A program made the position numbers and the translations under genes. Positions 3,039-64,000 of a stretch of DNA of 64,000 nt are shown in pieces (the stretch's first letter is position 1; the number at the start of each line of letters is the position of its first letter). Source of the DNA: Erythrobasidium yunnanense (taxonomy: Eukaryota > Basidiomycota > Cystobasidiomycetes > Erythrobasidiales > Erythrobasidiaceae); contig BCJC01000002.1 in the NCBI GenBank assembly GCA_001600175.1, positions 750,318 to 814,317 on the forward strand. Reading direction: 5' to 3'. Below the pieces are notes generated by a model. That model was not told where the DNA came from, did not search any database, and saw only the letters and a program-made list of their open reading frames with translations.

Positions 3039-6000
3039 ATGGATGGTCCAGAGCACAGAGGCGCCTATTCAGGATTGCAGAACCATGAACACGACGAGCA
3101 GACTGAAGTAGACCTGCAGAACGACAGACGACATCAACATATACAAAGCGCTGGCGAATCGAGCAGCGAAGACGTCGAAGATTCAGAGATTTTGGGCCAA
3201 GGCGGAGTTGCTGGCGATAGCACTTTACCGCGATATCGCTCGCGCTCGACGTTGAATCACAATGCAAGTGGTAACGGAAGCGTAGATATGTCGTCGTCAA
3301 TGCCGGCCATCAAAGCTTTCGACTTCGAGACTGGCGCACGTCTGGATTCGAGCCAGAGTAGCAGCTCAAACAATCACAATCATGAAATGAGCAATGCAAG
3401 CAGTACAACAACCAAAGTCGATGACAGCTGGAGCAGCTCAAAGCCCAGGAGGGTCGACTGGAGCCTGCCTCAAGATACCGCAGCAACCGGTGCAGCCAGA
3501 AACGACGAGAAGCCAGTGTTTGAGAGGCCATCTTTCAACAGAAGCATGTCCGACTTTGACAAGGATGATCAGGGTGCAAGTGAGGCCGTTTTGACCCGCT
3601 GTAGCGTAAAAGCCGTTCGCTGATGATGATTGTCTTGTCAGCTTTTGATGACTAGTAAGCTGGCGAATAAATATCGGCCTACACGCATATGGCTAATGTA
3701 ACTCTAGCGACTGGGATGACGATGATGAGCTGGTGAAGCAGCTCGATGAACGATACGAGCAAGAGCAGAAGAAGCAGCGAGAGGAGGCTCACAGACATGG
3801 CACTGTCATTCGCAGGTTCTCGCCTGTCCAGTCAGTCCTTTCCTCATCGCTGGCGCGGTGTCTCGAGCTAACCTTCTCTCACATACAGCCTTGCCAAAGT
3901 TGTCTTCACTACCTTTCTCGGCAATGTCATCCTCATCCTTCTGCTCATAACACCCGCTGTCGTGGTTCAGTTCCTCGTGAAGAGCCCCACGAGCGATGAG
4001 CACTTGGTATACGTCTGCGACAATATTCAAGCCTGGTGCTATTGGGTGGCCTTCAATTTCATAGCACGATGGGTAATCCATACTGCTTTCGAAGTCATTC
4101 CACGAGTAGTCGTCGCTATCATCGAACTCATCTGGGGCGATTCAAACGAAAAGTTCCGAGGCTGGGTGGAGGTCTTTACCGCTAGCAAGAGCCACATGAA
4201 GGTATTCATATTCATATTTCAAATCATCCTGACTTCCTGGTCTGACTTGGTGGTCCTTTCAGCCACTCTTCTTTTCGGGCTTCTTCTTCGGCTCCTTCGC
4301 CATCATCTTCAACTCGATATTCTCGCTTCGCAACAACAATGATCCGGCCAATTCGCGCGCGCAGTACACATATCGAGTGTACCAGGTGGTCGAGCTTCTT
4401 TTCTTCATCTCTCTGGTCTACGGTATCGAGAAAATCCTCATACGTATCATATCTCTGCGCTTTCATGCAGTAGCATATGCCGAGCGTCTCAAAGACAACG
4501 CTCGAGCGCTATCAACCTTGGACAGGCTGAAAGATTACAAACCAAGAAAGAAGCGAGCCTACAATACAGGCAGTTATCCTCATACCCCTCGAAGCGTTTT
4601 GGAAGGTGCAAACCATTACTTCAGCACTCATGTTGGTGCACCGGGACATCGCAGCGGGACTTCCACACCCGCCATCAGAAGTCCTCTTACAGGTGGTTCT
4701 GGTTCTGCCACGCCGCCTAGCGCCCCAGCTGTACCAGATCAAGCACGGCAATCCATTTGGTCAAGACTGCCTCTTCCTTCGTCATTCAGATCGGGTCCGG
4801 AAACGCAAGACAACAATATTATTCCCATGCAAGTGACCAATCAAGCTCAACAACAGCAATATCCCCCTTCTACAGTACGCAGAGAACGCCAGAACAGTGG
4901 ATCTGCCAGTATCGCCCCTTCATCCATTGCACAATCGACTGCCACAACCTTGACGCCAGTAACACCTGGTGCTGTTGCAGAAGCTCTAGTCGCAGAGAAA
5001 GGTCGGCGGAAGAGCATCTTCAGGAAGAAGCGCGTTACGGCGCAAGAGATTGCGCGCCAAGCGATGGTAGATCCGCTCAAGACTCTACAGAACCCTGGTA
5101 TCGTCAAGAACGGACTAGGTCTGGATTTCGCAAGTCCTGCCGACGCAAAGAAGCTTGCTAGGGATTTGTTCTACGCGTTCAGATCGTCTAATAATAGGGA
5201 CTACCTCATCACGTCCGACTTCTACCCTGCTTTCCCAACTGTGAAAGAAGCAGAGGCGGCCTTCGAAGTCTTCGATAAAGACAACAATGGCGATATCAGC
5301 CGGTCGGGCAAGTCTGAAGCTTTGTCATACGTGCTTCTAGGCTGACACTTACTTTGATTCGAATAGAGATTCGCCATACAATCCTTGCTGCTTACAAAGA
5401 GAGGCGCTACTTGGCCCGAGCTTTGCAGGATGCATCTACGGCTATCGGGGTCCTCGACAGGCTGTTCTTAGCCGTCTGCGTTTTCATCATAGCGCTCATC
5501 GCTTTTGCAGTCTTCAATGTCAACATCTATTCAAACCTCACGACAGCCTACACTATCGCGATCGCAGTCTCCTTCATCTTCAAATCGGCAGCCCAAAACG
5601 TTTTCGACAGTGTCATCTTCCTCTTCGCGACTCATCCCTTCGATACTGGCGACAGAGTCGTCATTGAAACGGAAGTTTTTGTGGTCAAGCAATTGGGTCT
5701 GTTCTCGACCCTGTTCACCAGATGGGACGGGACCGAGACCATGATAGCGAATAGCAAGCTTGGAAGCCTATTCATTACAAATTTCAGACGCAGTCCCCCT
5801 CAATTCGAGAATGCAACGCTGCAATTGGGTTGGCATACTACCATAGAACAGCTCGACGCTCTTGAGGCTAGGATGAACGAATGGCTGCAAAGAGATGAGA
5901 AGCGAATGTGAGTCTATAGTACTGCATATGACTGCAGGTTGCTGATTTGCTCATGATGCTCAGGTTCTCGCCAAGTACATCGATAGTACTGCAGAAGTTC

Positions 6001-6569: not shown

Positions 6570-9500
6570 TTACGTTACTGCTTGCAGATCTATCGGACCG
6601 TCTGAGATGAGTGTGACCTCGAATGATGCTTCTGTGCCCGGCCTAAAGGTAGAAGGGATGAGATAGTAGCCAGCGGTAACTGCTCTCAGCTGCACATCGT
6701 GCGACGACGAGCACCCAGCAACGAAGGCTGCATAAGGACCTGTGCTTATCACCTCTTCACCAATCGTTTCGTCAGGCTGTATGTGGTGGATGGCCAGTCG
6801 CGTTGCTGTCGTATTCGGCAGAGCTGTCAACCGCATACTACGCAACAGTCAGCGCACATCCTCCTGGATTTGCCTGCATTACCTACCGAAGCCTTCGAGT
6901 CACAGGGACTCGAAGCAGAAAGCGAGGGTTGTCATTGTAGCTAGGGTGTTTGCCGCATCCACCAGCTGTCTTCCCAAACCAGCGACCACGTATTGTTTTG
7001 GTGAACTTCCCAGCGTCCTCTTGCGGTATGCTGTTCACTAAGATAGATTGGTTCGTCTGAACATCCAACGTGAAGGCAGCTTCTTCGCCTGCCTTGAACG
7101 TTGAAGGCAAAAGTATATACGTCCCAGCTGTGTGTATACTACTAAGTAAGGTCTTGTTTGGTCAAGATCGGCACTTACAACTCAGTTTACTAGCAAGAAG
7201 AGAGGCGACACCGTGCGTATAGGTGCCTCTACCTGAATCTGCCATTATTACACACGTTTCGAGCCTGGCAACCCGGTCAGCTTATACGACATGTATCAAG
7301 CAAAGCAAAGTCACGCACTGCTGTATGCGCTCCAATACGCCTCGTACATCAACTCTCACGAGCTTGACATTAATGGGCAGATCGTTGCGTGCGCGCAATG
7401 TCACGGCGAGCTCAAGCGTAGGTGCAGCAGGAGACAAAGAGAACGCAAATTGTGGATTGTGTATGTATGTGGAGAGGGAAGGATTGCCTCCGGCACTCTT
7501 GCCTCGCCAATGCTCCTTGATCTGTTCGTGGCTGGTCAGGAGGCCAGAACCATCAGAGTTGCTACGCCCGACTCACCGTACGAGCATTAGGCAGACTTGT
7601 ACTTAAATCCATGAAGCAGTGTTCGCAAGTGCTGTAGCATGTTACGGACAGCCGCAAATCCCCAGCAGAACCTTTCCTGCTTATAAGCAACGCTAGTCGC
7701 GATTGCGGCCGTGCGAGCTTGACTTTGACGAGTATGTGAGCACTGTCGGTGAATTCGATCTTTGGAGGAAAGGTCAGATTGTTACACCGTACCAGGAGGG
7801 CGTGCTGCTCACAGCGGCCACGGGTCGCGAGGCTTGTTCCCCTGACGAGCTGGGAAGCTCCGAGATCTGAATGGCGATATAGTGTTTGGCCCCAGTGATT
7901 TCCATGTGACGGGAGACCAGCAGCCAGACTTCATCGGAGTCTATACTTGCAGACGGCCCAAGTTGTATGGCTAGAGATGGACTATCGTCTGCCGGACGGT
8001 CAGCATCTGTAATTCAAGTATAGTGAATGCATCTACCTTGAAGGCAGGCTCTGAAAAAAGCCAGTCAGACAGCATCGACATAACCCACACAACAGAACTC
8101 ACAAATGCACGGCTGAACTATGATCGAAGCTCTGAGAATCCCAATTACAGTACACAGAGCTGAAGTTCGCGCAGACATAGTCCCACGATAACTTCGTAAC
8201 TCGTTGTGCTGGGTGTTATACTCAGTAGCCGATCTCTCAAGTCGTGGGTCCGGAGGGCGCACCTGATTGGTAGACAGCATCGCCCTCGACTGGCTGATTT
8301 CCACACGCAGTCGACCAGGGATCGATAACTTCGAGATATCTTTCACCCGATGACCTTTCAGACAAGCCTATATAGAGCCCGTCAGTATGAGAGAAGACTC
8401 CCTTCGGCTATTAACGCACTCAGGACCGCATAGGCATGCTTGGAAGCCAGCTCGCCCTTTTTGAGTTTGATTGAACGTTCGCCCGTGCCCAGAGTCACGA
8501 GACACGTGCCTATACAGAGTGTTAGTCAAGTACGGAGAGCGATCGATGACTGACCTTCGCTGAAAGCTTTGTACAATCTGGTCCAAGTCTGCTCAGAGCG
8601 AAAGGTAGGGCTATTATGGTGATCAGTTTTCAGCCTCAATATGCGGGCGGGTCAAGCGTACTGTCGGAAGGCGATCTGTTCAGGAATCCAACCTGTGAAG
8701 GCACTAATGTAACGCGTCAGTTCATATCGCAATGGACTTGAGACGGGCGCAGCGCACTATATGTCGATGCTTGGGTCACTGATGGCAACCCTCAGGATGC
8801 TGAAGACAACTATAATAGTGGTACAACTCACGAGCCCGGTATCTGATAGCCTCCATGTAGCTTCACATACTATACACAAAATTGTCAGCGGGCAGCCGAA
8901 ACACGAGATAATGCTTACGGCTTTCTCCAGGCAAGCAGGCCAAAATTCCTGCTCAGGATAGAGAGTCGCGCATAGCGGAGTATTGCTAGCATTGATCGGG
9001 AAGTAGTCATCGATAGTGACCTGCCGAGCGGCACCGTTGCAATGCAATTTGACATAGTACTTGCCGGCTTTGCTGTGTTCAGGCCAGCCGGTCTCATCTT
9101 GAGGGAAGAGTGCATTCACGCCCAACTGTTCGCAAAGATGGTCAACCTCCACATTCAGATCGCACTACAGAGAGCTCCTACCTTGGACCCGAAGCGATTA
9201 TGATGGTGTAAGCACGCGATAAGAGCTGTTATAACCGAACAGTCGGTCACGCAGTTCTGGACGATAGAGGTTGCGAGGGTTTCAGGAGATAGAATCTTTG
9301 GGCTTGCAGCCAATTGGGACATTCGCTTGAATGAGTGCAGTTCCGCTTGTTGCTGCTTCGACAACGGAAAGTGACCAAAAGGATCTCTGGGCAATCCTGC
9401 ATTAACAGGCTGCTCCAGTCGATATTACATCATATCGCTTACGAGTATTGCAACTGGTCTTCCCCTTCTGTCTTGAGATTCTCCGGCCAAATAGGATATC

Positions 9501-48078: not shown

Positions 48079-49503
48079 TTAACGCAATCCTGAAGGAGGC
48101 GGATCTGCAGCGGGGACGCTTGTAGAAGTGCGATCTGCCATGCAATCCTCAGCTGATGTGTATGGAATGAGGCCTACATCTGACGCGCACATTTTGAGTT
48201 GCTTCAAAGGCGGTTTACAAGACACCATGTAGTTTGGCAGAGGAGAGATGTAGTGAGAAAGGTCGCGGTAGTCAAGGACACAGCAGAAAGTCTTTCGGAA
48301 ATCCTCCAGATAGGGATGAATATACGCCTCTAGCCGTTCTTCCATATCAGATAGCTCCTCTTCGCCTTCGAACTCCGTCTCGCGGTTATCGACAGATACC
48401 CACTGCTCGCAGGGTGGGGCGCTCATATTCCATTCTTTCAGGCTCTGATAGAAGCGCTCCCAATCGATATTTATGTGAAAAATGCTTAGATTGGGAAGAC
48501 CGCCTTCCAACATATCCCAGCAAAGATTGCATGGCGAAGTGGTGCTGCGACGTAAGACATGGATGATGTTCAGGCTGACAAGAGAAGGAGGAAGTTTGCT
48601 CATAGACTGAGTCCCTAGTGGGGATTTGAGATACTGCAGGTTGGGGCAGAGTTCCAGAAAGGACGAATAGGTCTCGTCATTGCATGCATCGGCATTGTAT
48701 TCGATAGTCTCCAAACTTATCGACACCTCCAGCGTTTGCAGGCCCGGTAAGGTCTCCATGTTACGCGCCATAACATACAGAAGTCTCGGCGAGATGGCCA
48801 GATATCTGAGATTACGAATAGAAGGAAAAGGGGCATATGATCTCCACTTTCCATTGATACGGAGGTCGATCGCTTCCAATTTTTGACTTGTGCCCAAATA
48901 TTCGAAGAGATCTTCGAGATCCCACTGGTCAAAACGACCGGATACGGTCAAGGAGGAGAGAGGCGAATCTGCACCGAGGAGAACGCTAAGTAGAAGAATG
49001 ATGCTTCCGGACTGTCTGACGCCTGCAATGACGGTTACGTGCTTGACTCGATGCAAGATAGTTGATGTCCATCGTCTGGCGAGATGTCCGCTCAAGTCGC
49101 AAAGGGTAAGGGAGAATCGGGAAGAAAGGCTAGGTCCTGAGAAGAGTTGATTGAGGCGTGCGTGTACTTCCAGTGCCTGTTCGCCCGGATTCATCCATTG
49201 TCCGTCATCACCTTGGAGCTCATGGACAACGACCTCTTTGACGGTTCCCGGACGCAGGGATTTAAAGACATAGTCATTGCGCGCCTTGTACCATGCGATT
49301 GCTGTGTTTGCCTTATGTGTAAACTGTAGGGAGCTGAAGAGAAGTGGACGTGTGATACGCGCAACGCGCTTGCAGGTCAAGGTGAGGCTGGTGACATTCA
49401 GACGCGTCAGATGAGGTCGAGCGAGGTCTGAAGTGTCTTGCTGTTGGATAGTGTGCTCTGCTATGCGCTGTAGCAGCTCGTCCGGAAGCTGCAGAAGGGT
49501 CAT
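48079..49503 (-). CDS. F-box/LRR-like protein, array member F1
   Basis: Start at ATG 49503, directly before the F-box-like motif MTLLQLPDELLQRIAEHTIQ, as in the other members; the frame is open further up but without similarity. LTLTCKRVARITRPLLFSSL follows, then RPGTVKEVVV, a leucine-rich middle (LPGLQTLEVSISLETIEYN, CPNLQYLKSPLG, LPPSLVSLNIIHV) and a charged end. It is predicted to act as an SCF-type adaptor, by analogy only. It lacks the C-X2-C and C-X7-C motifs of members F3-F8 and is the most divergent full-length copy. The frame is unbroken over about 475 residues. Confidence 0.7.
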   Translation of the reverse strand: MTLLQLPDELLQRIAEHTIQQQDTSDLARPHLTRLNVTSLTLTCKRVARITRPLLFSSLQFTHKANTAIAWYKARNDYVFKSLRPGTVKEVVVHELQGDDGQWMNPGEQALEVHARLNQLFSGPSLSSRFSLTLCDLSGHLARRWTSTILHRVKHVTVIAGVRQSGSIILLLSVLLGADSPLSSLTVSGRFDQWDLEDLFEYLGTSQKLEAIDLRINGKWRSYAPFPSIRNLRYLAISPRLLYVMARNMETLPGLQTLEVSISLETIEYNADACNDETYSSFLELCPNLQYLKSPLGTQSMSKLPPSLVSLNIIHVLRRSTTSPCNLCWDMLEGGLPNLSIFHINIDWERFYQSLKEWNMSAPPCEQWVSVDNRETEFEGEEELSDMEERLEAYIHPYLEDFRKTFCCVLDYRDLSHYISPLPNYMVSCKPPLKQLKMCASDVGLIPYTSAEDCMADRTSTSVPAADPPPSGLR

Positions 49504-49644
49504 CAGGCACGACGCCCACGAGTTGGCAGGAACAAGCAGAGCAAAACGATCCTTTTCGGATGTTTCATAGGTACGCAACATCGAATACAGTACAAACTAT
49601 CGCGCGTCTACATTGACGCCTGTCTTTCTCTCGAATGAACTATC

Positions 49645-51230
49645 TCAATACCACCCCTTCGATGAAACTCGCAATCTCCGCTGCCTGTACTTAGGCTTTT
49701 GGTACGGAGGATGTTTGGGCGTGACAGCGACTGGTATCGCCCAATGTGGTGGACCACTGGAAGCGCATATGGTAAGTGAGATTGAGCCTCGTTACCGGCC
49801 CGACTTACTGCATGACGCCTATCTCGTGGTCGAGCATGTATACATGCGGTATTCGAGGCCTCCAGTGGAAGGGAAGATTCCAAAATTTGGCTCTGCAATT
49901 TCAGCGTCAGCGTCTCGCTCGCGATAGCTTTATACGATGCCCTTACAGCTTAAGCTGGCGGTAATCTTCCTCAAAGATAGGGTCGATAGCGTACGTAATG
50001 CCGGCATTATCGAGCATATCGCCAAGCTCGGATTGGAATTCGTCTACCATAATCTCGTAATATTCGCTTTCGAGCTTGACAACCTCTGCGCTCAGGTCTT
50101 CGATACCAGCCGCTTCAGCGTCGACTAAAGGCTGGAATGTATCAAAGATGTTCCCTTTCCTGCAAGAGTCATGCGAGTTGAGCTCCCTCAAAAAGTCTGA
50201 AAGCTGCCACCAATTGATATCCAGGACTAGATGCTGTAGAGCGGGATAGTGTCCGCGATATATCGCTTGACACAGATTTCAGGAGAGGCGCAGATTCGGA
50301 TGAGCACACGAAAGTGATATGGAGATGGGTTACTGATAGAGGAAAGCCTCTCCTCTGACTGCATCCTAGTGGCGAGACAAGTATCTCCACATTGGGGCAT
50401 AGTGCGTGGACAATATCGCCAACGAACTCATCGCTTGCATGGCGGCCATCAAAGTTGTGGCCATTGAAGTCCTCTGTTATATGAAGCGTCCGGACAGATG
50501 GGAACCGACAGATCGAGTGCTTGTCTTCCATATCCACAATTGCACTCTCAGCAACTCCGAGAAAGAGCAGGGAGATGGTCGCGATATCCGGTAGATGATT
50601 CCCATAAAAATCGAGGTTTTGGATCTTGCTATTATTCGTGATGAAGTCACAGATACTGGCCAGAGACTCGGGACCAAGGCGGGCCTCATCGACTATAGAT
50701 AGGGTAGTCAAGTTTTTGAGCCGCTTGAGCCAAGGGACTGCCTTGTTGAAGTAGGAGACGCGCATACAGTGTCCACTGCGGATCAGATAGATGTGCTCGA
50801 TATGATTGCTAATGGTGTTGAGCCAGTCTGATCCTGTAAGAACAGTGACATCCCTCACCACAAGCCTGAGCCGTGTCGCTACCACTGAGCTTGTGACAAG
50901 ACGACCAATCAGCCGCTCGGTCCATTCTGTTAGGCGTGAAGGTTTGTTTTCGCCATCTAAAACGAGCTCTCGTACGGTGCCTGAAGGCAGGTTGTGCAGA
51001 ATGAAGTTGTCCCGTGCTTCGTAGGAATCCATCTCCTCTTCTTCATCAGATGTGTAGCGAACAGACTGGAAGAAGAGTGGCCGTAGAACAAAGGAGAACC
51101 TGCGGCAGACGAGGACCAGACTCGCAACGTCTTTTCGAGCGTCGTTCATATCGGTGAAGCATGGTTCGTATCTTTCGGGGATGGTGATCTTGGCTATTCT
51201 GATGAGGATCTCGTTTGGGAGCTGGAGCAT
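49645..51230 (-). pseudogene. F-box/LRR-like array member F2, frame broken once
   Basis: Starts MLQLPNEILIRIAKITIPER at 51230, with LVLVCRRFSFVLRPLFFQSV, DNFILHNLPSGTVRELVLDG and LKNLTTLSIVDEARLGPESL. The frame then shifts near 50270-50290: the family pattern continues in another frame as AIYRGHYPALQHLVLDINWW. Downstream, splicing after DYRQLKL could add small exons ending PPYQKPKYRQRRL, a weak match to the start of the C-terminal module. It has neither C-X2-C nor C-X7-C, grouping it with F1. Either a young pseudogene or a base-call error; the reads would decide. Confidence 0.62.
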
Positions 51231-51769
51231 GTTGCCTGCCGAAGGACTACAGTCGGAATGCGGGAGACGGTGGAGGAAGCTAATGCCACGAAGAGAAACG
51301 GCTGACCCAAGATAGCAAGTGTCGCTTGGAGCGGACCATTAGCAAGTCGTACCCCTAGGTTCAACCTACCAGCCGGCACCGCCGCAAAAGACAAGGGCCC
51401 AGACCTTCGAATCAGCGAGATCTGATGGAAGAGTAGAGAAGCTTGCGGAAAGGGTCGGAGCGGGGATCTGCAAGCCTCGTAACCGATATCGATTCAGCGG
51501 CTTTGTGATTTAGCCTGGCAGAGGCGGAGGAAAGGCAGCGTCAGTCTATACCAGGGCTTGTGTACTTGCGAGGCATTGGAATCATTCTGAAAGAGACATG
51601 TCTCGCATCGCAACCACATCCGAAGATAACCTGCCCTGTTTTCTAAGGAGAAACTCTCAGCCATATGCATGCACTTAGCTCGCCATACCCCAGAGCCCTG
51701 TGGACGCATACCGCACTCTTCCAGCCTTGATTGTGTGTTGCACCGAGTCGCTGCTGCCGGCTGGCCCGA
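51231..51769. other. Spacer between F2 and F3
   Basis: About 540 bp of array spacer, presumably the F2 promoter and F3 3' flank. Short frames only. No terminal repeats or target-site duplications seen. Confidence 0.4.
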
Positions 51770-53388
51770 TTACTTAGGGAAGGAGCCATAGAAGCACGGT
51801 TCGAAGGGAAGTCCTGAACATCGCGTGATGACATCCGCCCATCCGCCTAGAACGATCCGTCCGTCCGAGTTGATTTCCAGCTTGTACTGCTTGTAGGTCT
51901 TGGCATAGGGCAGGTGCTTTGGCCTGACTTTGCGTTCTCTACTGCTTGAAGGAAAGGTCATTAGGATCTGTGTTATGGGCTAGTGTGCGGTAATACGCAC
52001 TCTCTTATCGATGAGGAATAACCCGAGAAGTATGCTGCCTTGCTCGCCATCGGGGTGATGCTGTAGCCGATGCTTGCTTTGTTGAGGATAGAGCGAATAT
52101 CGTTGTAGAAGTGTCGGAGCATCAGGTACTCCACATCATATTGTTCGTCTTCCTCGTGCTCTCCTGCCTCACTCGATGCATCGGTCCCTTCTTCACCGAG
52201 GATTTTGCAATGAGTACATCTGTCCGCCATCGCCTTGGGTTCCCACTCAGTATTCCAGAGGTAGTCCAACATTTGTGACCAGTCAACCTCCAGGATGAAA
52301 TATTGAAGAGCGGGGTACAAACCAGTGGCTATACTTTTGCGGAGATGGTCGATTCCCTCAAAATCCCAAGCATCCGCTGTAATGTGCAGATACCTCAGGG
52401 AGGGCGGAAAGTTGCCAGACTCGTGGGGAAGCAAAAGACAGACCAGCCGCTCTACCTCTGGACAGAGCGCATTCACTAGCTCACAGATGGACCCCTGGAA
52501 AGGTTCCGTCTCTCGCTCATATCTATCGCGATAATGTTCGTCTCTGATCTCGAGCGTTCGCAAGCCTTCCAACGGCTTGAGTCGAGGAAGGCAAGATTGG
52601 ATATCATGGAGCGCACCCTCTGCGATACTGAGGGATCTCAGGGCAGGGCTCGAAAGGTACGGGTAATCCAGGGAACGCAGATGTATGACTTTGTCTCTGC
52701 CCTCCAGATTGATATACTCGAATAAACCCGCCAAGTAGGTATCATCGCACCCAGGTACGTTAATGATGGACAGGGACATCAGAGCTGGAAGCTCTCGAAG
52801 GAAGGGTACAGCAGAGTTGAAATTCGAGTACTTGTTGATGGGATAGAAAGGGTCTTCGTCATCGTCTTCAACAATATTGTCAACGAGTTGATAGTGATAG
52901 ATGCGACCGCCATTATAAGACGCGTCCATCAAGAGAGACACGTGTCGTACGCGGTGCGATACTTCGTGCAACCATGATGCTGCTGACATTGGCAGATCTC
53001 GGAAAGATAGCGATATCCTGGGAGCAACAACTGCTGAGTCGAGGAGAGCTGCCGCAGTATCGTTGAGCATGGATGCTACACGAGGGTCTGAGTTGGGACG
53101 GGATGAGCCGATCAGGACAATTTCCTCGACAGTGTTTGGCGAAAGGTGTCGCTGGATGAAGGAGTCGCGCTGCACGCAGCGGTCGTAAACTTCGTGGAGC
53201 GCATCACTGTACGTGTATGTGATTGTGTGAAAGAGAATAGGGCGCAGTACCGCGTACAAGCGGCGACAGGTGAGGACCAAGCTTTGGAGACACTTATCGT
53301 CCTCCTTGTGTCTGAAACCGAAATCGTCGAGATAAGAGCGCGCATGCTGCCCTATCTGATAGATCAGTTCATCGGGTAGCTGCAGCAT
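51770..53388 (-). CDS. F-box/LRR-like protein, array member F3 (intact)
   Basis: Best intact copy. Exon 1 starts at ATG 53388 with MLQLPDELIYQIGQHARSYL, then LVLTCRRLYAVLRPILFHTI, DSFIQRHLSPNTVEEIVLIG, APRISLSFRDLPMSAASWLH and RVRHVSLLMDAS. Leucine-rich segments follow (VPFLRELPALMSLSIINVPG, LEGLRTLEI, LCPEVERLVCLLLPHESGNF, ALQYFILEVDWSQMLDYLWN), the C-X2-C motif RCTHCKILGEE, an acidic stretch and ILNKASIGYSITP. An intron of about 60 nt separates exon 2: YAKTYKQYKLEINSDGRIVL, GGWADVITRC and SGLPFEPCFYGSFPK, stop 51770. The family is F-box-like by its N terminus; the C-terminal module is not one I recognise. Confidence 0.78.
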
Positions 53389-53724
53389 GCTTTCGTTGTG
53401 TTCGCATCGGTACAAGACAAAGAGGTCCGATGTCTGGCAGGTCTGGATTAAGCAAAGCTGTTTGTGTTCCAATGTGAATGCGCAGCATACAACAAGCACA
53501 ATCGATCGTCCATACGCCATGCACCACAGGCCAATGGACAGCCTCAGGGGGCATGGGTCCTCCATGACGGGTTTAGCGACAAAGCTACGCTAGCACACAA
53601 AGAACCAAGTCACGTCCAATCGTGCGTCTGCCTTTAGTCTTTACGGCGCCTGTTGACTGACATACTTCTGCCACGAGCTTGGATAAGGCGAATCGCAGTC
53701 CGCGTGGTGTAGGGCCTAGTCTAG
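53389..53724. other. Spacer between F3 and F4
   Basis: About 340 bp without a supported gene; contains the presumed F3 promoter. In-frame sequence upstream of the F3 ATG includes a hydrophobic stretch (GRSIVLVVCCAFTL), which I read as chance. Confidence 0.4.
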
Positions 53725-55371
53725 CTAATCCCTTGCAAGCGACAGATAATTTCGTCCTCCCTTACAGTACAGACTAGCCCATTGGTCCCACAGCTCGGTG
53801 CCACGATCTTCTGGTCGTGCTCGAAAGGAGCCTTCAAAGCACGGTTTGAAAGGCCGACCGGGGCATCTGGTGCCGATCTCTGCCCATCCTCCCAAGATCA
53901 TGTTACCACCCGAACCAGCTTTCAGCGTGTGCTGCTTATATGTCGCTCTGAAAGGAGGGTGCTTAGGCACGATGTTCGGTCTCCTTCCTGTACGAGAGGT
54001 ATTTTCAGTTCAGAAGGGGAGCAGCTAGTCCTCATGTGCACACACCAGTCAGAGCGTAGTAAATTCGGCTGAAAATATGGCCTCCAAAGCGGCGGCTGCC
54101 CCATGTCGTATTCGATATTCGCCTTTTCAAGCATTGCGCAGAGGTCGCTGTAAAAGTCTTCGAACATGAAGGTTTGGACAGCGTCGTCATACAGCAGTTC
54201 CTCATCATCATCGTCTGTCTCGTCTCCTTCCCCGTCGCTTGGATCCTCTCGCAGATGACAATAGCTGCACCTGGCGCCAAGCGGGGTCTCCTGCCAAAAA
54301 TCTAAATCCCAAATGCAATCTAGTATCTCTTCCCAGTCGATATCCAGGACCAATCTCCGAAGGAAGGGATACGTTCCGGCAGCTATGGCTTCGCAAAGAC
54401 GCATGAGAGCGGGAAGACCGGGGTTGCGAAGGCCTGTGATCCGAAGGTGCTCCAAGGATGAAGGGAAGTTGCCTGTTTCGCCTTTAGGCAGCGGGCAGGT
54501 CAGCTGCTGAAGGTGAGGACAGAGCAGACAGACGAGGTCGCCGGTGCGACCGTCGAATATTTCACGCGGTCCGACATCTTCGTGATCGATAGTAAGGCTC
54601 CGTACAGAGTGATGAGGCTTGATATCCTGTAGACGGGCTGCCATGGCCTGAAACCTGCCCTCTGCAATGCTGAGGTTTCGGAGCGCGGGAAGTAGGGAAG
54701 TTTGGGGCTTCCCAAGTGCAGATAGCCAGAGTTGAAATATTGTTGGCTCGCCGTAGAGACTCGTATAAATCGGGTATGAACATCTCGGAGTCCTCGTCTA
54801 GACCGACCACAGACAAGGACGTAAGGGCAGGGAGCTGTGGCAGGTAGAGCGCCGCGGAGGGAAAGCTGTCCGAGGACGAGTTGCTATTCTTCTTCGAGAT
54901 GAGAGAGACATGTTGAATGCGAGGTGCAATCTCTTCCAGCCAATACTCGATTGACGAAATGGGGATCCCCTCCAGATAGAGTGACACTCGCGGCGCGATG
55001 GCGATGGTCCGCACGAAAGCCGTCACAGCGAGATTGAACTGGGAGGTTGCTGCGGTCGACGCCCATCCACGACGTTTACGGCCAACAATGATCTCTCGAA
55101 CGGTCCCGGGAGGAAGATGGCGCCAGATGAAGCGGTCGCGTTGAAGGTAGAAGTCGAGACGCTCTTGGACTTCCTCTTTACAGACTTGATTATAGGAGTA
55201 TCGGATACTCTGGAAAAGGAGAGGTCGCAAAAGCGCGAGAGCATGGCGGCTTGTACGCGACAAGCTGGAGAGATCAGTGTTCTTCGCGTCGAAGAAGCCA
55301 TCCCATTAGCCTCGTCGGGCCAGCGTGTATTGTCCTATCTTGTATATGAGCTCGTCGGGAAGCTGCAACAT
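53725..55371 (-). pseudogene. F-box/LRR-like array member F4, broken
   Basis: Starts MLQLPDELIYKIGQYTLARR at 55371 but meets TAA at 55306-55308 after 22 codons; the same frame then continues with family sequence (LLRPLLFQSIRYSY, RDRFIWRHLPPGTVREIIVG, APRVSLYLEGIPISSIEYWL). A frameshift near 54690-54700 moves the pattern to another frame: LPALRNLSIAEGRFQ, LCPHLQQLTCPLPKGETGNF, LRRLVLDIDWEEILDCIWDL, and C-X2-C in ARCSYCHLRED. The last exon keeps YKQHTLKAGSGGNMILGG and RCPGRPFKPCFEGSF, but the tail runs on to 53725. The two lesions make a pseudogene likely. Confidence 0.75.
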
Positions 55372-55963
55372 GGATTTTGGTCGCGTCAAGCATTGGGCAG
55401 AGCAAGAAGTCGGAGCTCGCGTGACTTGGCAAGTCTGCGAAGTTTGGACTGCGTATAAGTATCTTGATTACACAAAGAGCATACAACGAGCTCGATTTAA
55501 TGCAATGGTCTCGCGCCTAAGGGCAAGAGGTGGGGCTAGCTAATGAGACAGATCAGTCAGGTAGTCGGCGCTTACTGATTTTAAGACGGCCTTCCCAAAA
55601 GTATGCACAAGACTGTCTCTCTCTTGATTCTTCTGTCATACCGCAGCTCCGTCAGTATTAGCCCGCATAGGCCGACGTTGCAGACGGCAGCGTATGCTTT
55701 GCTTGTGCGGCGGTCACTTGGGATGTTTGGGTCCTTATAGGCTTTCAACCATGGCGGCCCGTCCAATGGTCCGATACGCTTCTCCAGTGAATCGCATCTG
55801 CGAATGTCAGCCTCATAATTCGGCCAGATCAGATCCACGTTAGGCTAGCCCTTAGACTGCTTTCCGCGACATGCGAGTGTTGGAGGCACTGAACGCGGAT
55901 TGCGAGATTGGAGTAAGCATTGCTTGTTGCGTTAACCTGGTCAGAACCTATCCCGCGAATCCG
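55372..55963. other. Spacer between F4 and F5
   Basis: About 590 bp. A minus-strand frame of 85 codons (55581-55838) has no family similarity. No gene called. Confidence 0.4.
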
Positions 55964-57425
55964 CTACTTTGACAAAGAGACAGAGAAGCACGGATCGAAT
56001 GGTAAGCCAGAGCATCGAGAAGCAGGGTCGGCCAAATTTGGAACATGAGCGTAGCCAGCTGGATCGATGACGAGTGGTCTCATGCTTGGCGGACTGGGAA
56101 GTAGAGCGGTCAGTCTGGCTGGCCTTTGGTAGCGGGAAATCACGTACTCTTCGTCCGATCTCTCGGCTTCGTACGAGAGCCTGTCAAGCAGCGGCGGAAT
56201 ATTGTAATATATGTGTTGGGCGTCGAGCATGGCACAGAAGCTGGCGCGGAAATGCTGTAACATTGGATAGTCGAAAACGCCCTGCTCGACATGTACATCG
56301 GCTTGTCCTCCTTCTTGGATTGAATCTTCCAGAGTTTTGCAATAGTCACACCTCCCCGAAGGCAGTTTTGCTCTCCAAACCATATCCCAAAGGTGCCCCA
56401 AGAGCCCAAGCCAGTCGATTTCGAGGACGAGATGGCGAAGAGATGGATAGGCTTTGTTGGCAAAGGCTCGGTACAAGTGAGCTACACTCCACATGCCGTA
56501 CTCTTCGTCGACTGTGAGATGCAGGTATGCCAGCGAGGGTGGGAAGTTGCCAGTTTCACTTTCCAAAAGTGGACAGGTGAGTTGTTTCAGAGCTGGAAAG
56601 TACCTAGAGACTACCTGGTCGAATTGTCTATCGTAGTCGCGCTCGCAAGAGCAATCGAAGAATTCGTCACCATCGATCCTGAGCGTCTCAATGTGGACCC
56701 ACGGCGCAAGAGTACGCTCAAAACAGTTGGCCATCTCAAATGCACAGTCCGCAATGCTGAGAGACGTGAGATACGGCAGGCTGGTCGTTGGTAGAAACCA
56801 ACCTGCATGTCCAGGAGCCTGATAGAGCTCGAATGCTGCAGGGAATCGTATAGTCGATAATATGAACTTTCGTTCCGTAGTGATCTATCGATTATGCTCA
56901 TCGATGAGACGTGAGGCAGCTGTCGAAGTAGCGGAACGAAGGAGTCGAAGAAAAATAGTGATTCTTGGTTTGGCTTGAGCACGAGGGAAATATGCCACAC
57001 GGAGGTTCCGAGCCTCTGCAGCCAGCCTCGTGCAACTCGCAGGGGTGCATCTTCCAGAGTAAGCGAGAGTCGCGGGGCGAGCATGCTTGATCCCGCAGCA
57101 GCCGCGCCTATACCAAGGCCAACGAGCAGCTCGCATGAACAGGAATGACTATACCGTTCGTGTGCGATGGTAATTGCCGTGACATTGTCTGCCGGGAAGC
57201 GTTGGCGGATGAAGCGGTCCCGCCCGACATAGAACTCCACGCGCTCCTTCGTCTGTATACGACGCTCTGAAAGAGGGTTGATTGCAAGACAGCTAAAGCT
57301 CGTCGGCACGTTGAAATGAGGGCGCGGAGGTCGGCGGTCCTGTCCAGTTGCGGTTTCCTTTCATCGCGGGGAGCGATGCAGTATTGTCCAATTTTGATGA
57401 GAAGCTCATCCGGAAGCTGTAGCAT
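55964..57425 (-). pseudogene. F-box/LRR-like array member F5, broken by two frameshifts
   Basis: Starts MLQLPDELLIKIGQYCIAPR at 57425 and continues LRALISTCRRALAVLQSTLF. Near 57250-57262 the family pattern changes frame (KERVEFYVGRDRFIRQRFPA, APRLSLTLEDAPLRVARGWL, PLLRQLPHVSSMSIIDRSLR), and again near 56790-56800 (LPYLTSLSIADCAFEMANCF). The rest is open: LTCPLLESETGNFPPSLAYL, LRHLVLEIDWLGLLGHLWDM, C-X2-C in GRCDYCKTLED, and C-X7-C in RCSGLPFDPCFSVSLSK. The KQxKL part of the module is weak or lost. Two independent shifts support a pseudogene rather than a single sequencing slip. Confidence 0.75.
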
Positions 57426-57721
57426 GGTTGCTACAAGTTTCGAAGCAGTCGGTAGGAGCAAGAGGCTTGACAGAAGAGGTCAGTACATTGCAATCTTCGT
57501 CGGCTATGGATGAAATGGATTATGCAGCAGACAAGATGAAAGCTATGCTACACATGCCGCTGTCGTGCATTTATGCTATTCCGCTGGGGTTGCAATCAGT
57601 ATGCGCAAGCTATGCGCTCTGAGCTCTGTAAAGACTATAGACAGTATAATAAGCATCAAGCGGTAAGGCTCGACACTATGGCGCTAGCGCTCAAGTGCCT
57701 GTTATGGCAGCCTTCCCCTCC
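57426..57721. other. Spacer between F5 and F6
   Basis: About 300 bp, F5 promoter relic and F6 3' flank. Nothing recognised. Confidence 0.4.
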
Positions 57722-59264
57722 CTAGACGATTCTATGGTATTCTGCCAGGTCTTGTGATATAGAACCGTAGAAGCATGGCTGGAATGGGAAGCCGCGGCAC
57801 CGCGTCCTAATCCCCATCAAAGGGCCCAGAGTCATCTGGCCGTCGGGTCCGGGTCCAGCTTGTAGCTGTTGCTGTTTGTAAAACTTTCTTCTCGATGAAG
57901 GCGGGCTACCGAGTCTTCGCTCTAATCTAGAGGTGTTCGTGTCAGCCTGCAACGATAGATCTTGATAGGGGCAGCCCTTACAAATCAAACATCGTGGAAT
58001 ACGGCTCCATGACGAGTTCAATGCCCACCTTGTCACAGCCAGACAGGACATTGGCTTGAAAGTGGCGGAGCATGAGATCCGCAAAGTATTCGAAATAGTC
58101 CTCTGGGACGGAATCTTCGTCCATCGGCATGTCATCTCGAAAGACACAATAATCACATCTGTCTCCGGCCGGTAGGATCCGATAGTGTCTCTGCATGAGG
58201 AGTAGATGGGCCATACGCCAATCTATGTCGAGAACTATCTGTCGTAGATGGGGATAGGCGCCAGCAAAGATTGCCTTGAAAAGAGTCGTAACACATTCCA
58301 GGTCGACCTCCTCCAGCTCCGTTATACGTAGGAATACTAGCGATTGTGGGAAGCTCCCTATATTTTTACTGTCGGACAATGAGCAGGTGAGGCGCTCAAC
58401 GTTCGGGAAAAGAGTGGAAACGAATCGCCCGATAGGCCCCAAAAACGGCCACCAATGTTCGCGGATGTGGCGATCCCGATAAGATTCTCTGTTGATTACG
58501 AGCGTCCTGACCGATGGTAGAGGCTCCGTCTCGTGAAGGTATGCATCGGAGGCTGTCACAGAGTATTCCGAAAAGCTGAGCAATTTGAGGGATTTTGCCC
58601 TGAAATTGGGCAGCTCTGGAAGGGAGATGCTCAACAGCTTAATCCTATCATCCTTCTCTAGGTACTCCCATAGCTCAGCGAACGTATTCGGACTGATACC
58701 ATGTTCGTCAACAACGGACATGGAAATCAACGCAGGGAGGATTGCCAAGAAAAGGCCTACACCCTCGAAGAATGTATCAGGCAGGTGCTTGGAGCTCAGT
58801 TTGAGGGAGACGTGCTGTACGCGGGTCGCGATCTCGTTAGGCCAGAAGCAGATGGCTGACGGTGAAAGATTTTCGAAGCAAAGGGATAGATCTTTCGCGA
58901 GGACTGTGGTCTGAATGAAAAGCAGGACGGCAAGATTGATGAGTGTCGTGTTATTCGGGCCTAGCAGCTCATCGCTCCGCTGAGCCAGCTTCAGTTGCCG
59001 AACAGTGCCAGGCGGAAGATGCTTCTGGATGAAGCGACCACGTTCGACGTAGTATTCTACATGAGTTGTAAGGTCTCCGTCCCAGTAGACGAAGGTGACG
59101 CTTTCAAAAAGGACGGGTCTGAGCAACGCCAGACAGCGCTTGCATGTGAGCATGAGGGCGAGGAATTCGCGTCGCCTGCTTCCGCGCCAGAATGGATCAT
59201 CTTCTGCCAGAAAGATGTAGTGCTTTGCGATCTTGTGAATCAGCTCGTTCGGCAAGCGCTGCAT
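57722..59264 (-). CDS. F-box/LRR-like protein, array member F6 (intact)
   Basis: ATG 59264: MQRLPNELIHKIAKHYIFLA, then LMLTCKRCLALLRPVLFESV, RFIQKHLPPGTVRQLKLAQR, LCFENLSPSAICFWPNEIAT and RVQHVSLKLSSK. Leucine-rich blocks follow (LAILPALISMSVVDEHGISP, LLSISLPELPNFRAKSLKLL, LFPNVERLTCSLSDSKNIGS, LRQIVLDIDWRMAHLLLMQR), C-X2-C in DRCDYCVFRDD, and a conserved end, DKVGIELVMEPYST. A GTAAGG donor after TMFD joins to ERRLGSPPSSRRKFYKQQQL; the module continues GPDGQMTLGPLMGIRTRC and RGFPFQPCFYGSISQ, with a short extra tail to stop 57722. No lesion was seen, so this copy is probably functional. Confidence 0.78.
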
Positions 59265-59514
59265 GGCTGTTTCGAATGTTGCGGTTGGCAAGAGCGAACG
59301 CAGAAAGACGATCGCAATGGAGATATAGCACCTAAGAATACTAATACAAACAGCATAGCGTTGAGGAGATGGTCTAACAACTGCTGCACCCTCCCCAAAG
59401 TCGCAACTTGGTGTGTTTTAGGGTCTTGCACTTTCTGATGTCCCTACAAGCGAGTACAGTATCAAATACATCTCTTTTAGCAGCTTCGCAATGTCTGTTA
59501 AGCGACTCCGTCGA

Positions 59515-61033
59515 TTAGGGAAAGGAGCCATAGAAGCACGGTTCGAAGGGTAATCGAAGACACTCCGTGCTGAGTTTAGCGGGTCCACCTATGGCGATTC
59601 TTCCATCTGCTCTTCTCTTCAACTTGTGTTGTTTGTATTTCTTGCCATCGGAGCGGTCTTTAGGTATGTACCTTTCTGCATATCTGCAAAGCGAATGTTG
59701 AACCAACTCAGTTCGCAGTATCGATAAGACAGGCCTCTTACCTTGAAGAAGCACCCCTAACTTCACATGGCAAAGGAGTGATGTTGTATCCGATGCTGGC
59801 TTTGTCGAGCGTTTCGCATAGCTTCTTGTTAAGGTTTCCAAGCATGAGATATTTGACATCCTCCTCTTCGTCTTGAGACTGATATTGCTCATCTTCCTGT
59901 ACTTCGTGCCCTTCTTCCATCTCGGGCCCCAGCAGTTTGCAGTAATGGCACCAGTCTGACGACGAGTATTCCCATTCCGGAACGTCGAGGTCCAGCAAGA
60001 TGTCCATCCACTCAATGTCCAGAATGAAGCGCCGTAGGGCTGGGTACAGTCCAGCAGTGATGAATTTGCAAAGATGGGACATGCCTTCCGCTCCATAATA
60101 GTCGTCCGTGCTGATGTGTAAGTATTCCAAGCAGGCCGGAAAGGTGCCTGCCTTGTATGTGTGTAGGGGACAGGAGAGGCTCTGCACGTTTGGACAGAGC
60201 AGTCTCACTAGCTGATACAGATTTCCTTCGAACTCTCTTCGAGGCTGAAACTCGGCATCCTTCCCGGATCTAATCTCCAGGCTCTGCACGGTGTCCAGAG
60301 AGGTTATGTGACCGATATGCTTTGATATCCTATATAGATCGCCTTCTGTGAGGGCCAGAGATCGCAGGGAAGGGACCGCAATATTGGGCAATTGTTTGAC
60401 CCGAACATCCAGGGTTTGAATACTCGTCGCATACTGTAGGTAATCGACCAAGCGGGTAAAGTAGCTTGCATGCAGGCCGTACGTGTCGACAATGGACAGA
60501 GATGTTAATTTGGAAATCCGTAGGAAAGGGACAGCGGAGGAGAAGATGCCCGGAGGTGGAATTGCTGAAGTAGATACAAGAGAAATGTGTTGGACGCGTT
60601 TCGCTGTCTCCTCCAGCCAGTACTGTATCGTGTTCAGGGGCAGATCCTTCAGGTAGAGCGAGAATTTGTGTTTGATAGCATTTGATCGCACAAATGCGGT
60701 TACCGCCAGGTTTACGAGTAACTCCGTATTTGGAGACAGTGCTTTGCTACCCTTGCGAATGAGAATGAGCTACTGGACGGTGCGTCGTGGGAAGTGACGG
60801 CGGATGTAGCGGTCGCGTTCAAAGTAAAATGCAACGCGCTCTTGTATGTCACGATCTTTGTATCTGTAAGTGACGCTTTGGAAGAGGATGCGTCGCAAGA
60901 TGAGGAAGCGTTTGCAAGTGAGGATCAGGGCGCGCAGATGGTCGGTCCTGTCGAGCAGGCCTTTCCATTCGTCGCGGAGAGTAATGGTATAGAGTCCTAT
61001 CTTCTGTAGCAGCTCATTTGGAAGCTGCAGCAT
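59515..61033 (-). pseudogene. F-box/LRR-like array member F7, single in-frame stop
   Basis: ATG 61033: MLQLPNELLQKIGLYTITLR, LRALILTCKRFLILRRILFQ, ERDRYIRRHFPRRTVQ, then TAG at 60770-60772 exactly where relatives have Glu or Lys after GTV. The same frame goes on without another stop: AFVRSNAIKHKFSLYLKDLP, RVQHISLVSTS, LTSLSIVDTYGLHAS, LCPNVQSLSCPLHTYKAGTF, LRRFILDIEWMDILLDLDVP, C-X2-C in DWCHYCKLLGPE, and DKASIGYNITPLPCE. The GTAAGA intron leads to the module KKYKQHKLKRRADGRIAIGG and ECLRLPFEPCFYGSFP. A single GAG-to-TAG type change would explain it. Recently inactivated, or a base-call error. Confidence 0.75.
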
Positions 61034-61531
61034 GGTCTCGAGTGATTGAGGTGCGGAGCAAAACAAAGGGGAGACGCGTCGGGATCTGAGGCAATGACGG
61101 ACAGGCAGCAGATGTAAAAAAATCGCACATAGCAATAGCAGGAGAGGAAACACCAAGAACGTATAAGAATTCCGCATTCGCATGACGCGGCAACCTGGGT
61201 CGAAAAGTGGGTTGATGCGATTGGAGCAAAAAATGCAAGGCGTCAGACTTCCGACCCTGGAGTATATCTCTTCTTTGCTGGTGATCGCTTCAGGAGCTGA
61301 AGAGTACTTTGTCTCGGCTGTCGCGAATGTATAAGTAGAGATGCTGCGAAGCAAGCCATATTGCAGCAAATCCAAGCGGTCGGTCTCGACAAGGATACTT
61401 ACGGATAGAGTGTTATGTAATTTGGAAGGTGAAGATTATTTCCCTTGGCTACTCAGCAAGAGGTAAAGGATTTTGTGCTAGCTTCGAAGCTCGAGCTTCC
61501 TTCTGTTCCGAGCTACCTTGCTTGCTCAAGG
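61034..61531. other. Spacer between F7 and F8
   Basis: About 500 bp. Upstream of the F7 ATG the frame is open to an ATG at 61375 and includes a strongly hydrophobic stretch (TFLVFPLLLLLCAIFLHLLP). If used, it would give F7 a membrane anchor, but paralogues do not share it. No other gene. Confidence 0.4.
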
Positions 61532-62820
61532 TCATGGCAAGGTTACGAATGGCATCGGCAGACAGCAATCTTTACACAGTCGAAGGTGATTTGGCCAGTG
61601 CGGGACGGAGCCATAGAAGCATGGGGAGAGAGGGAGCCCGCTACAATGCGTGCTGACATCCATCAAGAATCCCAGCTGCATCTGACCATTCAGCGAAGCC
61701 TTCAATTTCTGCTGCTTGAAAGTCTTCTTGTAGGGAGCATACTTCGAGTCGGCTTGCGACACCGAGCTATACGAATGGGTAATCAGTCTGGTCGAGTTGA
61801 TGTAGTACAGAGGAGGCGTACCGAGATGCAGTTGTAGCAGGATATTCGCAGTAAGCTGACTTGTCGTAGAATGGATTGATGGTATACTCAATGCCTGTTC
61901 GTTCTATCATGGAAGAGAAAGTGTCGCGAATGTGCTGAAGAATCAGGAATTCGACGGCTTCGTATCTGGAGTCCTCATCCTCGTCCTCATCTTCTCCTAG
62001 GGCGCCTTCCGCGTCCTCTACCAAATGGCAATAGTTGCATCTGTTCGCGGGTGCCAGTGCTCCCCAACGCCCTAGCTTATGCTTATCCAACATGTACTCC
62101 CAATCGATGTCCAGAAAGATGTGCTGAAGTATAGGATAATTTCCAGAGGTAATTGCCGTGCAGAAATTCGAGATACTCTTGAAGCCGATGTCCTCTATTG
62201 CTGTGACATGAAGCTGTACCATAGAAGTAGGGAAATAGCCTAGCTTGGCTGAGGCCAGGGAGCACTCTACACGCTCAACTTTGGGGCAGAGGGTCGAGAC
62301 CAAGTCGCCGATGCGGCCTTTGAAAGTCGAATCGACATGAAATGTGTATGGGCCTACGTGCCAGCTATTGTCTATTACCAGTGTCTTGACCGTACACAAT
62401 GGCTGTATGTTGTGGATATTGCGTTCAAGATGTTTGAGGGCCTCTTCTTTGATGGTAAGAGCCTGGAGGGAAGCCGCCCTGACGCTCGGCAAGACTGGAG
62501 AATTCACGTGGAGCACCTTGATCTTATTGGCTTGCTCGAAGTATTTGAATAGCCGCGAGGAATATCTTTCCTGAGTACCGTGTAAGTCGATGATGTATAC
62601 GGATGCCAAGATGGAGAGCCGACTGAGAAATTTGGCGGCACCTTTAAAGAAGGAATGGCACGTATATTCGGAAGTCAGCACGAGGGAAACATGTTGAACC
62701 TGGTGCGAGACGCCTTTCAGCCAGTGCTGCTGCACCGACATTGGTGTGTCCTTGAAGTACAGCGATAATTGAGGAGCGATAGCTGATGTTCGACTAAGAA
62801 AGGTTACGGGAGATGGAACG
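61532..62820 (-). pseudogene. F-box/LRR-like array member F8, missing its 5' third
   Basis: Family similarity starts abruptly near 62,815 at APQLSLYFKDTPMSVQQHWL and QVQHVSLVLTSEY; an in-frame stop lies just upstream, and no F-box or RDRFI block is found before it. The rest is open: FLSRLSILASVYIIDLHGTQ, LCPKVERVECSLASAKLGYF, LQHIFLDIDWEYMLDKHKLG, C-X2-C in NRCNYCHLVED, ERTGIEYTINPFYD. A GTACGC donor after TTAS joins to RSVSQADSKYAPYKKTFKQQ and KLKASLNGQMQLG, with C-X7-C in HCSGLPLSPCFYGS and an extended tail to 61532. 5'-truncated duplicate; expression unlikely unless a new promoter was captured. Confidence 0.75.
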
Positions 62821-63178
62821 AAGTGACATATAACGTTTTATCCTTCGGTTTTCTTTTGTTGAGCTATAAGCTTATAACGATCGGTGGGGCACCACGCTTG
62901 ACGCCCGAAAATAGGACAAAAGAACTTTGCATTGAATCAACAAACCGGTCTATGCGCGTATATTGTACATTTAGGACATCCACGTCCAAGGTGGGAGTTA
63001 GAGCGGCGGCGCTACGAGTACACCTAGCGAGCTCTCGGTCATGGGATAACTGTACGCTCATCGGAGAGAGGTGACGCGTGCTTCTAGGGCACACCTGGGG
63101 ATGCAAGGCGCGGCCTGATCCAAGGGTCTCGCTGAATACAACGCAAAGGACACTACAGTATGGTGTTCGCTGATGAGC
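62821..63178. other. Breakpoint sequence upstream of F8
   Basis: About 360 bp where the missing F8 5' end should be. No F-box family similarity, no gene and no transposon end recognised. Confidence 0.4.
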
Positions 63179-63704
63179 TTAGGTAGGCCGGGAATAGGGA
63201 AACTTCAAATGCGTTTGAGGTCTACTGCACAAGGAATTATCACTGCGCTCCCAGCAGGCTGATATGTCATCGCAATATTCGCAAGAATCAAAGTTTTTCT
63301 CCAGCGCGGTAGGTGAAACGAGGCATGCGTGTAACCTGGTGAAGGAGGAGATTATGATGATCAGGTCGTCTTGCTCGCCGAAGAGTATGGACATTCCGCA
63401 GAGGAAGCCGAACATCCCGAGGGGCCGTATGACAAGCGTAACATGCTTTAGAGCTGTCACCTTGGACAGGAGTACCGTCGATCCAGATAAAGCCTAAGAG
63501 GCGGTAAGCCTTGATGATATTCCCTGCTGTACGACTCTTGGCTGTAACAGCAGGCTCAGCTAGTCTCCAGCAATACTTTTCCACTTGAGAGCTCATCAAC
63601 ACTGATAAGCGCAGTAATTGAAGAAAAAGAAGGCGCAGGGTCTCGCTCTGCTCTGAAAGAACCCTCAGTCCGGTAGTTGTGAAAAGGACGGAGAGCGAAG
63701 ACAT
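63179..63704 (-). pseudogene. Degraded F-box family relic, F1-like
   Basis: A frame reading GSTVLLSKVTALKHVTLVIR and PLGMFGFLCGMSILFGEQDD resembles the F1 stretch WTSTILHRVKHVTVIAGV with SIILLLSVLLGADSPLSSL. The surrounding sequence lacks a continuous frame or F-box start. This suggests an old ninth member of the F1/F2 subfamily. Weak: similarity judged by eye only. Confidence 0.3.
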
Positions 63705-64000
63705 CAGTTACCGGCACAACGAACAAAAGATACTCCACCAGAAGCACAAGCAGCGCCCGCAAAGACCGTGGAGAAATTTGTGTAACCCGGACTTGGATTT
63801 TAACGGATTAATGGAGCAGGGGCCAGCAGGCATGTCAGTAGATCAGATGTGACAGGGCCAGTCCAGTCCAGGGCGGATGGTACGTTGTATAGACTGTTCA
63901 TCGGGGGAGAAGAGGTACTGCTCTTCAGAGAGAACCGGATTTCTGGACCAAGGGAAGCAGCGCCATCGAGGAGACGTACGGAGATGGGTAGATATGCGCC
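63705..64000. other. Window end, no gene resolved
   Basis: About 300 bp. A minus-strand frame is open for about 160 bases to the window edge but shows no family motif. It could belong to the next array member or to spacer. Confidence 0.3.

Follow-up and report, generated by a model that had tools for sequence, protein, structure and literature searches.

The closest described systems to the genes reported here are COI1 and FBXL2, F-box/leucine-rich-repeat (LRR) receptors of SCF ubiquitin ligases, in which an F-box-like start is followed by irregular leucine-rich repeats. FBXL2-type prenylated F-box proteins have the F-box/LRR plan and also carry a cysteine close to their C terminus. The genes described below share the F-box-like start and the irregular repeats with COI1 and FBXL2. 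Unlike these receptors, they are extended at the C terminus by a region that holds four cysteines, two of them (the last pair) encoded on a separate exon, and they give no above-cutoff sequence match. F-box domains are reported to be depleted in Microbotryum (PMC4469406), and an F-box survey of Macrophomina has been published (PMC7991009). No description of the present array or of its C-terminal module was found in the literature, judged mostly from the opening lines of abstracts.

The array lies in a stretch of 64,000 nucleotides (the window; C2:750318-814317) of the 20.9-Mb, 10-contig genome of Erythrobasidium yunnanense, whose introns and gene content by themselves suggest a fungus, probably a basidiomycete. 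As a first-pass annotation of this DNA had proposed, eight F-box-like genes are arranged head to tail on the minus strand, numbered from F1 at the lowest coordinates to F8 at the highest. F1 (48079..49503) is an open F-box/LRR frame, and F3 (51770..53388) and F6 (57722..59264) each have an unbroken main frame plus a last exon. F2 (49648..51230) is frame-broken near 50280. F4 (53725..55371) has an in-frame stop (TAA, 55306-55308), and its frame is also broken somewhere from about 54706 to 54797, F5 (55964..57425) has two frame breaks (near 57250 and at about 56800-56880), and F7 (59515..61033) has an in-frame TAG at 60770-60772. F8 is in two pieces, its second half at 61532..62803 and its F-box half, with the start MLQLPNEL, past the window end at C2:814506-814847 (64189-64530 in window numbering). 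The annotation had the eight genes right and missed that most of them are broken. Five of the eight (F2, F4, F5, F7, and F8) have lost an intact frame to stops, frame breaks, or an insert, and unbroken main frames are left in F1, F3, and F6. It had also listed seven MLQLPxEL-type starts; an F-box-type start is present in all seven members that start inside the window, and the strict MLQLP string occurs in five. The SF3B1 splicing factor gene lies past the array and the window (L009 3724-5610; PDB match, E value of 9.6e-217).

F8 is split by an inserted element of 1,385 bp (62804..64188, of which 62804..64000 lies in the window; no strand assigned), which parts its F-box half from its repeat half. 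A second copy of the element is found on contig C3 (L052 549-1943), where it aligns in three pieces with 91 to 99% identity; both ends are shared, and the flanks differ. By eye, the stretches of flank inspected showed neither a target-site duplication nor a terminal inverted repeat. The open reading frame (ORF) that holds the F-box half of F8 (L009 225-830, or 63925-64530 in window numbering) reads on into the insert below 64189. A ninth F-box member, described earlier as a relic at 63288-63704, was rejected, as this ORF sits within the two-copy insert; it has no Pfam match at an E value of 1.

We scanned seven N-terminal pieces, leaving out that of F4, against Pfam. All seven matched PF12937 (F-box-like) with E values of 0.00038 to 0.054, and it was the top match in six, although the curated cutoff was never reached in the array (best score, 20.6 bits versus 24.3). 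The F-box model PF00646 was also run on the genome, and all 32 places listed lie outside the array. The columns L, P, E, I, L, C, R, and F are invariant across the seven N-terminal F-box pieces. For the repeats, Pfam LRR_14 was matched by one piece only, with an E value of 0.22. A structure model of the F3 main frame (460 residues, without the last exon) had a mean pLDDT of 76 and a pTM of 0.73, with alternating strands and helices. In a Foldseek search of this model against the PDB, COI1 was the best match (E value of 1.5e-4) and the sole one at an E value of 0.001 or better, with low TM-scores of 0.34/0.29. FBXL2 followed at rank 12 (E value of 0.029), and many unrelated chains stood among the lower ranks. 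A PDB sequence search with F3 gave a single match with an E value of 0.66. Together, the subthreshold family matches, the predicted fold, and the repeat pattern support the view that the members are F-box/LRR paralogues, as had been suggested from the sequence.

Six members, F3 to F8, carry a four-cysteine signature, which consists of a C-X2-C after the repeats and a C-X7-C close to the C terminus. Both motifs are present in six of six members with exactly the spacing first described for them. On the minus strand, the C-X2-C motifs are CTHC in F3 (52207..52218), CSYC in F4 (54258..54269), CDYC in F5 (56339..56350), CDYC in F6 (58146..58157), CHYC in F7 (59939..59950), and CNYC in F8 (62028..62039). 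The C-X7-C motifs lie, on the same strand, at 51794..51820 (F3), 53839..53865 (F4), 55988..56014 (F5), 57773..57799 (F6), 59536..59562 (F7), and 61619..61645 (F8), so that neighboring copies are spaced by 1.76 to 2.15 kb. In F1 and F2, the place of the C-X2-C retains its first cysteine alone, and the tail motif is missing.

In five of the six signature members, F4 being the exception, a homologous phase-2 GT...AG intron of 54 to 59 nucleotides is predicted from the sequence between the main frame and the exon that carries the C-X7-C. The predicted introns, all on the minus strand, are at 51942..52000 in F3 (59 nt), 56094..56147 in F5 (54 nt), 57927..57981 in F6 (55 nt), 59684..59741 in F7 (58 nt), and 61767..61821 in F8 (55 nt), and four of these five have a CTRAY branch-point-like site 15 to 19 nucleotides before the intron end. 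F5 has both motifs in one ORF. We rejected it as an intronless variant because its predicted intron is free of stops and has a length that is a multiple of three, and read-through of this intron accounts for the single ORF. F2 has a homologous last exon (last-exon profile, E value of 0.0032) that stops short of the C-X7-C, and F1 has a stretch that resembles the last exon by eye only. The proteins end in CFYGSFPK (F3), CFYGSFP (F7), or CFSVSLSK (F5), while F4, F6, and F8 extend further. A C-terminal CaaX is absent from the tail ends of F3 to F8; unlike in FBXL2-type prenylated proteins, the last cysteine of the C-X7-C lies outside any such box. Above threshold, Pfam gave no match to the last exons of F3, F6, and F7, and NCBIfam, a prokaryote library, gave none to that of F3. 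As far as these libraries and this genome go, the C-terminal module may be undescribed, as the annotation had hinted.

When the post-repeat region and the last exon of F3 to F8 were aligned, 13 of 119 gap-free columns were invariant; besides the four signature cysteines, they hold L, W, I, L, G, P, P, F, and S. Nine of the 119 columns hold any cysteine, and the invariant ones among them are the four of the signature. The chance that four named columns would all be invariant is 9e-5, a value to be read with the fact that the motif was chosen after being seen. Both TGT and TGC are used at the signature codons, which argues that the motif does not stem from recent copying. We rejected the C-X7-C as conserved noncoding DNA, since all 15 last-exon pairs differ more at synonymous than at nonsynonymous sites. 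Last-exon dN/dS values are 0.20 to 0.59, with dS of 1.0 to 2.7, in the 11 of 15 pairs that gave a ratio, and these ratios are rough because dS is near saturation. Taken together, the comparisons support constraint on the four cysteines of F3 to F8. The claim that the four cysteines matter holds to this extent. In the repeats, one more cysteine (column 341 of alignment A1, in an LxCxL context) is present in six of six signature members and replaced by serine in F1 and F2, and a cysteine in the F-box is invariant in seven of seven N-terminal pieces. Conserved cysteines are thus not limited to the signature, and since the repeat cysteine shares its presence pattern, the four-cysteine site is not singled out.

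Whether the two pairs act together is a separate matter. The C-X2-C and the C-X7-C could together bind one zinc that fastens an exon-encoded tail to where the repeat solenoid ends, so that the tail would shape or gate the substrate groove; such F-box/LRR receptors would form a new subclass. We consider this rather unlikely, and the repeat cysteine with the same conservation pattern weakens it. In a half model of F5 (11 alignment rows, with the predicted intron left in), block-mean pLDDT values in the tail were 32 to 46, and the C-X2-C block reached 62, compared with 55 in the F3 main-frame model; when the F5 half model was searched by fold, no match reached an E value of 0.001. With such tail values and modest values at the C-X2-C blocks, a joint cysteine site is conjectural. 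A better-placed alternative, though one we would put at somewhat below an even chance, is that the pairs act apart, the C-X2-C being part of the last stretch of the repeat domain, and C-x3-P-x2-P-C-F in the tail serving as a short docking or modification motif. It fits with the invariance of P, P, F, and S in the tail besides the cysteines, with the separate exon and low-confidence model of the tail, and with the unpaired repeat cysteine that shows the same presence pattern. F1 and F2, however, lack both the tail motif and the second cysteine of the C-X2-C, a weak hint of linkage that may reflect a single event, as branching in the member tree is poorly supported (bootstrap values of 13 to 54).

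The copies are old, judged by their synonymous sites, which are near saturation: pairwise dS is at least 0.97 in every pair that gave a value, and several pairs are saturated. The breaks are recent relative to the age of the copies. In simulations, an unconstrained frame of 472 codons gained on average 1.0, 2.5, 4.5, and 8.4 stops at 0.02, 0.05, 0.1, and 0.2 substitutions per site, respectively, whereas F7 has a single stop against the roughly 4.5 expected without constraint at 0.1 substitutions per site. High dS with few stops suggests that the broken copies probably lost constraint late. That the whole array is nonfunctional, with the motifs as residues of ancestry without a current role, would agree with the five broken genes (four of them among the six signature members, where F3 and F6 alone are unbroken). 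It is nevertheless improbable in our estimation, as F1, F3, and F6 have stayed open across more than 400 codons despite their long divergence. The opposite reading, in which the breaks are assembly errors and every member works, draws on the fact that frame breaks are typical of long-read errors; two of the lesions, however, are in-frame stops, one is the 1.4-kb insert, which is also present as another copy elsewhere, and another F-box array of the genome has two in-frame stops as well. We give this reading slightly less credence still.

That other array, F-box/LRR-like, is at C1:2619500-2629400 (L049). Two of its members have in-frame stops, a TAG at 3553 and a TGA at 8147 of the locus, and an ORF in the same frame resumes behind each, with an intron as a possible alternative. 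With these stops, decay of F-box arrays may not be peculiar to F1 to F8.

We searched the genome for further copies with three queries, F3, F1, and the F3 last exon. Among the best candidates, which alone are scored, F3 had 18 matches and F1 had 12 at an E value of 0.01, all in the array, and the F3 last exon had seven at an E value of 10, of which six were in the array and one was elsewhere on C2 (E value of 0.03). No paralogue outside the array was found with these queries among the matches listed. Profiles of the C-X2-C region and of the last exon were then run on 3,722 translated segments from 15 sequences, namely, the window, two neighboring stretches, eight 3-kb F-box loci, and four stretches from other F-box arrays, which take in 17 of the 32 listed PF00646 matches of the genome. 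They recovered the array members, including F2 with both profiles and F1 with that of the C-X2-C region only, and the next matches in these 15 sequences beyond the array had E values of 0.22 and 1.7. By the F3 last-exon search and the profiles on the 15 sequences, the module is found in the array only within this genome.

A second tandem array of F-box-like proteins, at C1:1312500-1322400 (L048), has repeated C-X2-C pairs after the F-box. It resembles the present array in being tandem and in bearing such pairs, but its matches to the module profiles are at chance level (E value of 3.5 or worse), and its cysteine plan is a separate one. Elsewhere on the same contig, a partial 5.8S rRNA-like stretch was observed at about 1501-1625 of L053 (C1:4391638-4391762), just upstream of a gene that we take by eye to be Hsp70-like; it was the only 5.8S match among the best 39 of 876 candidates scored.

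The array genes probably encode substrate receptors of SCF ligases and evolve by birth and death. The reading we favor, and hold to be slightly better than an even prospect, is that of an old tandem array of F-box/LRR substrate receptors whose cysteines were kept for structure and whose copies are now declining through birth and death. Skp1 of the SCF ubiquitin ligase would be bound by the F-box at the N terminus, while the substrate would sit on the irregular leucine-rich repeats. In F3 to F8, the repeats are followed by the C-X2-C, an acidic linker, a helix, and the last-exon tail with its final C-x3-P-x2-P-C-F. Selection for structure may have kept the four cysteines, and one bound zinc could perhaps tie the tail down where the repeats end. 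In this reading, most copies were broken recently. If the tail is indeed held in this way, the binding groove would be shaped by a metal-pinned lid, which would be new among LRR-type ubiquitin-ligase receptors. Whether or not there is such a lid, old F-box copies were apparently kept for long in this array and then broken one by one recently.
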